IMG/VR virus record: IMGVR_UViG_3300027509_000001
Span: 124,519 to 188,518 of that record
Direction: 5' to 3' (one strand)
Length of the DNA: 64,000 nucleotides
DNA from: a virus
Part shown: positions 1 to 5,838 of the stretch, in pieces
Layout: the number at the start of each line of letters is the position of its first letter
Numbering within the stretch: the stretch's first letter is position 1
The notes under the pieces: generated by a model
What the model was told of the DNA's origin: nothing
The model's database searches: none
What the model saw: only the letters and a program-made list of their open reading frames with translations
Program-made: the position numbers and the translations under genes

Positions 1-1434
1 ATAGAAATCAACTTCAACTCTTACATGGCCATGTTTATCTGCTTTTCCATTTCTAACAACTACATATTCTTCTCCCGCCATTTGAAATACAAACTTTGAT
101 TTAAATAAAGTCTTATGTATATTAAGTACTTCAGAAGCTTTCCATGTCCTAGAGCATTTATCAAATAGACAATATGTTAACGCATCTAACAACGTTGACT
201 TGCCAGCTGCATTTGGAGCAAACAAGCCTTGTAAACCATGCAATTCTAAATTAAATTTATTATTAGGTCCATATGAAAACATATTAGAAAATTCTAGTTG
301 TATTGGTTTCCATATAACATTTCTAACAACCTTTTTATTTGAATTTACTTCGCTGTTTGCCATTCTATTCATGTGTCGGATTTGATCAACTACCTTTTCA
401 CTTGGCAAGTCTATCTGCTTTAAATATTGCTCAATTAATGTGTTTTGGTACTCTATATCTCTTACGTCGCCTATTGTCATGTCTGCATTTGATATATTGT
501 AATCTAATGCATTTGATCTTATTGCAATGTATTCCTTAAATACGTGCTTTTGTTTCAATGTTTTAACATATGATTCTATGACTTCTTTGTCAGTTGCCTC
601 ATGCTTAATTCGCAACCTCAAATATTTTGGTAATTGCTCAATATAGCTTTTGGGTGTCATTAATTGATTTTGCTTAAATGATAGAGTTGCATATGCTATA
701 TCATTTTTTATAGGGACAAATTCATGTGTTTCATTTTCTAGATCCCAAACCACTAAGCCATGATTGTCTACTGATTCTCCGTAATTTTGTTGAATTAAAG
801 ATGAAGCGTAGCATATTCTCTTTTTTTCATCTAAATATTGAAATTTATGAATGTCTCCCAATAAAGCGTAATCATATCCTCTGAAAATACTAGATTTTAC
901 ATGATCATTTGTAATCTGATAGTTTAATTCAGTCGTGGCTCCGGTAACTGCGCCATGGTGAAATGCAATTTTTATATCGTTATTTTTGATATCTTTAGCT
1001 GGTATCCAGTCTTCTGGAGATCCAAATACTGAAAATACTGAATAACTAACGTTATCTTCTGGATGTATTTTATACACTCCTGTATCTTTCCAGTAGTATA
1101 TATTATCATGGTCCAATGCATTTATAATAGGGCTTAATGCATCTAGTCTAGAATTATTATTTAAATTAGTATCATGATTTCCAGTTATAACAATTGTTGG
1201 TAATAGATCTGCGCAAGATTTAAACAACCAACTAGTTAACTCTATCAATTCCGGAGTCATGTCGGTTTTCTGGTGAACTATATCTCCTGCCAAATAAATA
1301 ACTGAATTTTTAGTTTTTACCGATTTAATATATTTTAGCATTTTTTTGAATACTGCTCGGTATTCAGAGTGCCTTTTATAATTCCTAATATGTATATCGG
1401 CAACATGAAAAATTTTGTCTGTTTTATATTCCAT
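1..1434 (-). CDS. Fused SbcD-SbcC (gp47-gp46) recombination nuclease, partial at left edge
   Basis: An open frame runs from ATG at 1434 to the window edge (478 codons) with no stop. Residues 1-200 carry the Mre11/SbcD/gp47 metallophosphoesterase motifs: DxH (D13, H15), GD (D51), GNHD (85-88), HHG (159-161) and GDIH (193-196). After a capping-like region, a Rad50/SbcC/gp46 ATPase N-terminus begins with a P-loop (A406 to T414, K412) followed by LLDALTYCLF. In T4 these are two proteins (gp47 nuclease, gp46 ATPase) that resect DNA ends for recombination-dependent replication; here both lie in one reading frame. The first P-loop glycine is Ala (A406). The start overlaps the end of the primase gene by 11 bp, implying co-translation. 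The coiled coil and Walker B would lie outside the window. Confidence 0.85.
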   Translation of the reverse strand, partial: MEYKTDKIFHVADIHIRNYKRHSEYRAVFKKMLKYIKSVKTKNSVIYLAGDIVHQKTDMTPELIELTSWLFKSCADLLPTIVITGNHDTNLNNNSRLDALSPIINALDHDNIYYWKDTGVYKIHPEDNVSYSVFSVFGSPEDWIPAKDIKNNDIKIAFHHGAVTGATTELNYQITNDHVKSSIFRGYDYALLGDIHKFQYLDEKKRICYASSLIQQNYGESVDNHGLVVWDLENETHEFVPIKNDIAYATLSFKQNQLMTPKSYIEQLPKYLRLRIKHEATDKEVIESYVKTLKQKHVFKEYIAIRSNALDYNISNADMTIGDVRDIEYQNTLIEQYLKQIDLPSEKVVDQIRHMNRMANSEVNSNKKVVRNVIWKPIQLEFSNMFSYGPNNKFNLELHGLQGLFAPNAAGKSTLLDALTYCLFDKCSRTWKASEVLNIHKTLFKSKFVFQMAGEEYVVVRNGKADKHGHVRVEVDFY

Positions 1435-2365
1435 TTAATCCTCTTTGTATTTCTAATTCAAAAAATGAATTTTCATTCATTGGTAAAGTCGAGTTTATTA
1501 AATCCCAACTAAGTTTATATCCTAATTTATTTACATCACTATTTTCTGGGTATTTTACGTGGTATACTTTTATACCTAAACCAAGTAAATATTTAATATA
1601 TTTCATCTGTTGTTTAAGTGCATCTGGATCTAGGCATAGATATATCTCAGATACTTCATTTTCTAAAATTGCAAGTTTTAATGATTTGGACATGGTTTTA
1701 CCATACATTGGAGTCGAATTAATTCTTAATGTAATTGCATCTAATGCCGACTCGCATATTAATAATGGTAAATTCCAATTCAATTGCATTTCAAAGCCTA
1801 TTACATTTCTATCATATGGTGCATTAACGAATTTAGTGCTTGACCCATTCATAAATGATCTAGTTGTATAAAAATTTAAATTACCATTCTGATCGTAATT
1901 TGGAAAGATTAATAAATTTTTATATTGTCCAGAATCCGAATAACCAATATTATATTTTATAATATCTAGTTCTGTACATCCTCTTTGTGTTATTAAGTAT
2001 TCGTGGGCTTTGTCATAGAAAAATCCAGATTGTTTATAATAAAGAGGAATGAATGATTCAGGTAGCTCAATTTTTTGAGTTATAGATTGGCTTGTATTTT
2101 TTAATAGATATTTAGTGCGATCGTCTTTAGGATATACTTCTTTTAATTTCTCAAAATACCTAGGAGCGGCTTTCATTTTTCGAAGAAGGGAATATATAGA
2201 TTTACCTTTTACGTCGCATACCCAACAATGATAGGTTTGATTAGTTGGATGTATTTCAAGTTTACGTTTCCGATGATTACAAAACGGGCAATGAAAAGCA
2301 ATGTTAGTTTTACTTTTTTCATATCCAATACCTAAAAAAGATTCTAAGAATTCTTTAACCACCAA
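1424..2365 (-). CDS. DNA primase, gp61/DnaG type
   Basis: 313 aa. A zinc-binding module lies at the N-terminus (C26, C29, then C47, C50) and a TOPRIM domain in the C-terminal half, with the acidic glutamate E205 in CESALDAI and the metal-binding DPD at 246-248. This is the layout of phage primases that make RNA primers for lagging-strand synthesis (T4 gp61). The neighbour just downstream is the SbcD-SbcC fusion (11 bp overlap), so replication and recombination functions are coupled. The helicase partner was not seen in the window. Confidence 0.85.
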   Translation of the reverse strand: MVVKEFLESFLGIGYEKSKTNIAFHCPFCNHRKRKLEIHPTNQTYHCWVCDVKGKSIYSLLRKMKAAPRYFEKLKEVYPKDDRTKYLLKNTSQSITQKIELPESFIPLYYKQSGFFYDKAHEYLITQRGCTELDIIKYNIGYSDSGQYKNLLIFPNYDQNGNLNFYTTRSFMNGSSTKFVNAPYDRNVIGFEMQLNWNLPLLICESALDAITLRINSTPMYGKTMSKSLKLAILENEVSEIYLCLDPDALKQQMKYIKYLLGLGIKVYHVKYPENSDVNKLGYKLSWDLINSTLPMNENSFFELEIQRGLNGI

Positions 2366-4182: not shown

Positions 4183-5838
4183 CTATGCTTCCCATTTAAT
4201 TAAAATATTAATGTTGACATCGTCTCTTGACATTACTGGTTGGGCTAATTTTGCTACAACCAATAATTCTCCTGCCTCGTTATACAATCCTATTTCAGAG
4301 ATATATGGTTTTAGACCACCATCAGTAAAGTCTGAATTTAATTGATCGGATGATTTATATATTCTCGCCGTTGGGTTCAGTGTTAGGTTGAACTCGCCTT
4401 TATTTATCCGACAAAGTACTTCGTATTCATAAATCATATGAGTCGACTTAAATCGAAGCAAATCGATGTTGTCTAAGAAAGTATCATAGTATGAAAATGG
4501 AGTTGTTATTACAATATTTCCACTTCTATAAAAAACGTTTCCAATAACATTTGTATAAAACATATTTTGAGTTTTAGATAAGTCTGTCATTAATTCTAAA
4601 ACTGTAGACGAATCATAAAAACTATTATTATAAAATCGTATTTCATCTAATCCAACATTTGTTCTTGCAGAACCTTCTAATATGCTACTTGTTCCAAATA
4701 ATAAGTCATAATCATTATAAGGAGATATTGTATTATCAGTTACTGTTTCTACTAATGAACCATTTAGAAATATTGATAATTTAGGCACATTTGAATCTGT
4801 ATATCTACATATGATTAAATCTATCCAACTTTCGCCGACAGCAGGAATAGTAATTTTAGTTAGATTCTTACCGTCAGATCTTGTAAATGTTATGACACCA
4901 GTGTCAATTGATAAATTATATGGATATATATTCGTAGCTACATGTTCATCTTCATAATAAATTTTCTTTCGAATCTTTATTCCCTTGTCAGTTACTTCTT
5001 CTATTAATCCAATCTTTTTGGTTTTCTTTACACCGTTTTTTGACAAAATTGTGCCATTATTATGGCTAGTCAATTCTATTTTCATGTGAATAAGAAAATC
5101 ATCATCTATTAAATTGAAATGGTCATTATGAGCTGTTCTAATATACCCATCGTTTGTTGATATTGCGCCTCTAGTATCTGCATCTTCATATGACTTCGAT
5201 TTAATTAAAGATATTCCTTTGAATTCTGAAGTCATTGTATCTGCATTAAATGGGAAGTCATATGCATAGTCTCCATCTTCTAACAATGGATCTGAATTCC
5301 ACCGCAATACATCCTTATATAAATCATTAAATGACCAATAAGAAACTAAATGATTATTATTCCAGATTTCAGCTAGACTAGTTGGAACCTCTCTATCAAT
5401 TAGATTACCATTACCATCATCAATAATTGAATTTAAATAATTGTAATTAATTAATTCTACAGAATTCTTTTTTAATGCTTCTCCTAAATCTAAATATGGA
5501 ATTGAAATGTGAGATAATGTAGGAGATATATACTTGTATGTTTTATATCTGTTAACATGTTCAAATGTAGCTGATGGATTATATGGGTCATTATAAAACA
5601 TATGGTTTAGTGAGGACCATATTATAGCTTGAAATGACCCGTCTGTGTTTTTTAAATCATTATCTGACTTAACGTCATTTATAGGAACTGGTATACCTGA
5701 ATGATATCCCTTTCTAACTAAATATCCCTTTTCAGATGTAATTTCGTCAAGGGGTAAATTGAATTGTTTGTTAACCGTTACCGGCCTTAATGTAAAATCT
5801 GATTTTTTGATTTGTTTTGCAATTCTTGGTATAGCCAT
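4183..5838 (-). CDS. Structural (tail-fibre/adhesin-like) protein with LamG-like domain
   Basis: 551 aa. The middle (about 160-410) looks like a concanavalin/laminin-G sandwich: it opens with LVSYWSFNDLY, has alternating beta segments and ends with an LDEIRFYNNSF strand typical of LamG domains. The last ~75 residues (YISEIGLYNEAGELLVVAKL and after) belong to a module shared with the next two genes. It sits 7 bp from its neighbour in a tail operon, so it is probably a virion surface protein binding host glycans or assembling on the baseplate. Confidence 0.6.
   Translation of the reverse strand: MAIPRIAKQIKKSDFTLRPVTVNKQFNLPLDEITSEKGYLVRKGYHSGIPVPINDVKSDNDLKNTDGSFQAIIWSSLNHMFYNDPYNPSATFEHVNRYKTYKYISPTLSHISIPYLDLGEALKKNSVELINYNYLNSIIDDGNGNLIDREVPTSLAEIWNNNHLVSYWSFNDLYKDVLRWNSDPLLEDGDYAYDFPFNADTMTSEFKGISLIKSKSYEDADTRGAISTNDGYIRTAHNDHFNLIDDDFLIHMKIELTSHNNGTILSKNGVKKTKKIGLIEEVTDKGIKIRKKIYYEDEHVATNIYPYNLSIDTGVITFTRSDGKNLTKITIPAVGESWIDLIICRYTDSNVPKLSIFLNGSLVETVTDNTISPYNDYDLLFGTSSILEGSARTNVGLDEIRFYNNSFYDSSTVLELMTDLSKTQNMFYTNVIGNVFYRSGNIVITTPFSYYDTFLDNIDLLRFKSTHMIYEYEVLCRINKGEFNLTLNPTARIYKSSDQLNSDFTDGGLKPYISEIGLYNEAGELLVVAKLAQPVMSRDDVNINILIKWEA

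Follow-up and report, generated by a model that had tools for sequence, protein, structure and literature searches.

A one-chain Mre11-Rad50 fusion enzyme encoded beside a primase in a large environmental phage, and its apparently re-split relatives

The window analysed here, a stretch of 64,000 bases (G000:C1:124519-188518) that makes up the right part of a virus record of 188,518 bases, begins within a gene for a protein of 1052 aa, in which a Mre11-type nuclease and a Rad50-type ATPase are joined in one frame. As judged from its sequence, this single protein combines the nuclease motifs, the capping and helix-loop-helix (HLH) regions, the ATPase motifs, the coiled coil and the zinc hook. 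A large tailed phage very probably makes this full-length fusion as an enzyme that would act as a homodimer in the processing of DNA ends for recombination-dependent replication, and the pairing of its gene with a primase gene would reflect co-expression. The sequence-only reading that drew attention to the gene had implied that the fusion was novel. This was mistaken, since Mre11/Rad50 fusions, a phage one among them, were published in 2011 (PMC3175470), and the protein belongs to the fusion type known since then. That earlier work had used short metagenomic scaffolds; the present data confirm it and take it much further, as large environmental phages commonly encode a one-chain Mre11-Rad50 protein, stably kept and tied to a primase. 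The family is far larger and more regular than published, and its main points are the constant pairing with the primase and a re-split of the gene at a displaced position.

Domain organisation of the fusion protein

Within the window, the gene appears as an open frame of 478 codons on the minus strand (window 1-1434), which exits the left edge (Table 1). Followed through the whole record, it extends from an ATG at window position 1434 to a stop codon at G000:C1:122794. Pfam searches of the complete protein gave Metallophos (PF00149) at residues 7-197 (E 1.2e-10) and AAA_23 at residues 380-593 (E 1e-14), and a match to PHROG 77 (SbcC) spans residues 237-1049; with the complete gene at hand, these matches confirmed the original suggestion of a nuclease and an ATPase sharing one frame. 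Extension to the left, which had been proposed as a check, recovered all the remaining Rad50 elements: the coiled coil region with the zinc hook CKYC at residues 723-726 (C723/C726), the signature SGMEKF at 961-966 (S961-F966), Walker B and D-loop at 988-998 (IDEGFGVLD at 990-998) and the H-loop (H1024).

Table 1. Coordinates of the fusion gene, its parts and the adjacent primase gene in the window
Feature	Position	Strand	Evidence or remark
DnaG-type (CHC2 zinc finger) primase, 313 aa, directly upstream of the fusion	1424..2365	-	phrog_47, E 1e-35; PF01807
Mre11-Rad50 fusion gene, visible 478 codons	1..1434	-	other 574 codons and stop at G000:C1:122794-124518
Mre11/SbcD phosphoesterase, residues 1-262, including first capping-domain strand	649..1434	-	PF00149; SbcD structural match; AlphaFold model
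Motif I, D13-I-H15	1390..1398	-	D and H invariant, 78/78
Motif II, G50-D51-I-V-H54	1273..1287	-	G, D and H invariant, 78/78
Motif III, G85-N86-H87-D88	1171..1182	-	N86 78/78, H87 77/78
Motif IV, H160-G161	952..957	-	invariant, 78/78
Motif V, G193-D194-I-H196	847..858	-	invariant, 78/78
Remainder of Mre11: capping domain (second half) and HLH Rad50-binding segment, residues 263-363	346..648	-	profile match; model
Inter-domain linker, residues 364-374 (approx. 11 residues)	313..345	-	model pLDDT < 50 at 364-373
Rad50/SbcC ATPase N-lobe, from residue 375, continuing left of the window	1..312	-	AAA_23 380-593; structural match
Walker A/P-loop, A406-P-N-A-A-G-K-S413	196..219	-	N, G, K and S invariant in 78

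When the family profile was compared with solved structures, the ATPase half matched E. coli SbcC and archaeal Rad50, and the nuclease half matched T. maritima Mre11 together with the Rad50-binding segment at its C-terminus, with residues 263-363 corresponding to 203-371 of chain C in 3qg5. An AlphaFold model places two helices, at residues 327-341 and 346-363, in this binding segment. The full-length model of one relative (L011) was matched by SbcD structures with Z up to 24.6 over 271 residues and by Rad50 structures at Z 20.5; it comprises the SbcD fold, the Rad50 head and an extended antiparallel coil that bears the hook close to its tip, the model's pTM of 0.40 denoting a low global confidence at which the overall placement of domains is not reliable. 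No second Rad50-type gene was detected in the 188.5-kb record, which leaves the fusion as the sole one, and a search of the same genome for a separate gp46/gp47 pair found none, the fusion being the only SbcD-type gene detected. The only other Metallophos gene of the record encodes a phosphatase-like protein of 236 aa.

The two are separate genes in E. coli as well as in T4, the cyanophages and other phages, and the frame might on this ground be thought an artefact, a gp47-like gene having been run together with a gp46-like one by mis-sequencing or mis-assembly around codons 300-400. However, no stop codon lies between the two halves either in the window gene or in 77 relatives, which come from other contigs and keep a single frame of similar length (approx. 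1000-1090 aa), and each incomplete relative has its own explanation, either in the contig ending there or in an insertion. A missed stop, for which a look at reads across ~300-400 had been recommended and for which the relatives here take the place of re-sequencing, or an assembly error is therefore excluded in practice.

Relatives and conserved residues

The fusion family is very common and abundant among the environmental phages of IMG/VR: a profile scan gave at least 599 pattern matches and at least 555 stretches encoding a relative, the best 80 of which were kept, a choice that favours full-length matches. Seventy-six of these 80 hold the whole gene in one frame, and the other four are cut by a contig end. 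Thus, the same fusion, sought in related phages, was found in the 76 uncut IMG/VR relatives and in Microcystis phage Mel-JY01; with the window gene, they make up the 78 fused sequences compared below. A scan of viral contigs with a single sequence returned no matches, and an alignment query was needed to find the relatives. Plasmid matches were weak, none of them spanning 80% of the protein, and a cellular or plasmid origin was rejected. The genome_contigs matches closest to the family are mostly short MAG contigs, which are probably stray phage DNA.

Invariant in all 78 sequences are D13, H15, G50, D51, H54, G85, N86, H160, G193, D194 and H196 on the Mre11 side, and N408, G411, K412, S413, C723, C726, S961-E964 and D991-E992 on the Rad50 side. 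The Mre11 motif set had been described as complete; the motifs are indeed present, but the fifth (G-D-I-H) is not quite canonical, as Asp194 occupies the place of the first His of GHxH, which is present where SbcD is a protein of its own, as in T4 and E. coli. Motif II likewise has a His in place of the textbook third acidic residue. Both substitutions have been published for Mimivirus R555, in which the third Asp of motif II (GDxxD) is replaced by His and the first His of motif V by Asp (PMC3175470). The Ala noted at the first P-loop position, normally Gly, was read correctly (A406); with Ala in 74 sequences, Ser in 3 and Gly in 1, it is the norm and a trait of the family, not damage.

It may be asked whether the Mre11 half is still a nuclease, as Asp194 stands for a canonical Mre11 metal ligand in 78/78 sequences and the same change has been published for R555 (PMC3175470); together with the P-loop Ala, it could mark a family that tethers ends without cutting them. 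We consider this distinctly improbable. D13, H15, D51, N86, H160 and H196 are kept in 78/78 sequences, and H87 in 77/78, over deep divergence, a dead enzyme would have no need of these residues, and Asp is also able to bind metal. The conservation of Asp194 and Ala406 argues, as far as an alignment can, for function.

In the 484-kb phage LR756508, the fusion gene is interrupted by approx. 1 kb (L004, ~4570-5650) just after the GDIHKRQ motif. The insert holds a 305-aa zinc-ribbon/endonuclease-like ORF; a group I intron was considered and rejected, no credible Rfam match being obtained.

Relation to known fusions and separate SbcCD pairs

Yoshida, Claverie and Ogata described Mre11/Rad50 fusions in 2011 from Mimivirus (R555), Bacillus phage 0305phi8-36, bacteria, plasmids and eukaryotes, and found relatives of R555 to be abundant in aquatic viral metagenomes, some on GOS scaffolds with phage primases (PMC3175470). 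The window protein resembles R555 in its N-terminal Mre11 and C-terminal Rad50, the capping/HLH region, the short linker and both motif changes (PMC3175470), whereas R555, the protein of a giant virus of amoebae, is longer (1351 aa), as is its coiled coil. The window family likely falls into the clade of R555, a placement based on comparison of the published residue changes only.

Among isolated phages, Mel-JY01 encodes a full-length fusion (WWT39521.1), which is 38% identical overall to the window protein and is annotated as 'AAA domain containing protein', its Mre11 half having been missed. The order of GIY-YIG gene, primase and fusion is shared with the window, except that in Mel-JY01 169 bases and a small extra ORF separate the primase from the fusion. 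One-chain Mre11-Rad50 fusions are also encoded by Tenacibaculum phages PTm1 (annotated 'DNA repair exonuclease') and pT24 ('DNA repair') and by the 735-kb phage LR756501. These group in the same clade as the window protein, as opposed to separately encoded SbcCD (100/99 support), but are longer (1202-1318 aa) and 19-24% identical over the alignment, and the stretches that were read showed no matching primase next to them. T4 gp46/gp47 and E. coli SbcCD represent the same two enzymes, with the same domain set and presumably the same job as the fusion; they differ in being encoded by separate genes, in lying outside the clade of fused and split forms, and in having GHxH in motif V and Gly at the first P-loop position. 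In a survey of jumbo phages, SbcC and SbcD are treated as near-universal core recombination proteins (PMC7824862).

Phylogeny and apparently re-split relatives

Trees of the Mre11 half and the Rad50 half agree, with no conflicting splits at 0.95 support, and the two halves have therefore been inherited together. In a tree that included separate SbcCD pairs from T4, cyanophage S-ShM2, E. coli, Moorella, and Bacillus and Stenotrophomonas phages, all fused and re-split forms made up one clade of three branches (100/99), and all separately encoded pairs fell outside it. In an AU test, the fused forms as a single clade gave p = 0.34, a value that neither establishes nor rules out a single origin of the fusions.

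The re-split forms (L118-L127, L109-L117, L098) came to light on IMG/VR contigs and by way of a MAG contig from Bacteroidales. Their nuclease is a free gene of approx. 277 aa, which matches the fusion up to residue ~262 and ends there. The Rad50 gene, which encodes 807-818 aa where complete, lies in the IMG/VR contigs on the opposite strand from the nuclease and, in most of these contigs, downstream of a primase gene. The first ~120 residues of this Rad50 resemble the capping/HLH segment of Mre11 in the fusion; the match reaches E 4e-5 to 2e-4 with hmmsearch for the best members and is weak or absent in several, and the profile-profile comparison gave E ~1e-6 at a probability of ~90%. The two pieces meet without overlap, as fission of a fused gene would leave them. 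On balance, we favour a scenario in which the fusion is old and stable, and one phage lineage, probably from Bacteroidales of the rumen or gut, has broken it again at a new place, setting the nuclease free and leaving the second half of the capping domain and the HLH on Rad50; the rumen or gut origin is suggested by the Bacteroidales source. Independent fusions at different joints would be a less simple alternative. It should be noted that the re-split group was picked after it had been seen, and it is offered as a lead only. No report of the displaced split was found in the open-licence literature, in searches not aimed specifically at re-split forms. If the fission scenario holds, the re-split enzyme must rebuild its capping domain from two chains, and would reveal which Mre11-Rad50 contact must stay in cis; as such, the displaced re-split would serve as a natural experiment to show which of the contacts joining the halves are important.

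Genomic context and proposed function

The last 11 bases of the primase gene overlap the start of the fusion, and the two genes may be translationally coupled; AGAGG, which resembles a ribosome-binding site, stands just ahead of the ATG of the fusion. The pairing is constant: a homologue of this primase was present in the stretches of 77/77 relatives, in 76 of which it precedes the fusion in the same orientation at a distance within 400 bases, and the two genes overlap or touch in 73 of the 77.

Of the isolated phages, Mel-JY01 is closest in its terminase (51% identical), followed by the Flavobacterium immuto phages (49%). In immuto, the position directly after the homologous primase, which the fusion holds here, is taken by a 260-aa PD-(D/E)XK exonuclease (L092 6899-7681), as read in one genome, of which close relatives exist, and with a Pfam match just under the cut-off. 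No Rad50 was detected in the genome of Flavobacterium phage immuto, and no immuto-type PD-(D/E)XK exonuclease was detected in the genome of the window or the fused relatives tested. Judging from these gene contents, it looks as though one end-resection enzyme has given way to another that is not homologous to it; if the job of this slot is end resection, a PD-(D/E)XK exonuclease is what would be expected there.

The separate-subunit Mre11-Rad50/SbcCD complex contains two Mre11 and two Rad50 subunits. Two copies of the fusion would make contact at the dimer face of Mre11, at the Rad50 heads with ATP sandwiched between them and at the zinc hook, and a homodimer of the single chain would yield the usual 2:2 complex. 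The idea that fusion fixes the ratio of nuclease to ATPase consequently carries little weight, as a homodimer leaves the ratio of the separate-subunit enzyme unchanged; what fusion would do is make co-assembly obligatory. The enzyme would bind the ends of phage DNA and resect or open them in an ATP-gated manner, and the resulting 3' single strand would pass to the phage's own RecA/UvsX for recombination-dependent replication and repair. The model for such end processing in recombination-dependent replication is T4 gp46/gp47 (PMC3016280). The pairing with the primase would reflect co-expression with the replication machinery. A single-chain enzyme of approx. 1050 residues would also be handy for structural work on ATP gating of the nuclease.

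The protein might instead serve mainly as a nuclease for host attack or counter-defence (degradation of host DNA, or action against SMC-type defence), with replication as a lesser role. PADLOC gave a match of the Rad50 half to the defence ATPase LmuB (E 1e-21), and T4 gp46/gp47 are annotated as needed both in recombination and in the breakdown of host DNA. In Lamassu defence (LmuACB), LmuB is encoded together with the effector LmuA and the partner LmuC. The LmuB match is, however, limited to the shared SMC-type ATPase, the neighbours seen are the primase and structural genes, the constant partner is the primase, and the phage has its own RecA, all of which makes a main role outside replication unlikely.

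The RecA/UvsX homologue is encoded on the minus strand at G000:C1 80.7-82.0 kb (L090 544-2184), and the record also encodes T4-type portal and terminase proteins. The match to RecA breaks off at model position 198 and is taken up again after approx. 150 aa; the intervening stretch resembles a small intein (GDKYC...RLNHN), to which the Pfam intein model gave no score. To the left of the window, the T4-type portal gene (L002 3-2783) carries an intein (PF14890, E 9e-14) at residues 369-744, with an HNH-like stretch. In the same region (L002 5686-8514), a frame of 942 aa starts like a nicotinamide mononucleotide adenylyltransferase, and a gene of comparable length, annotated NadR, is situated close to the primase of immuto.
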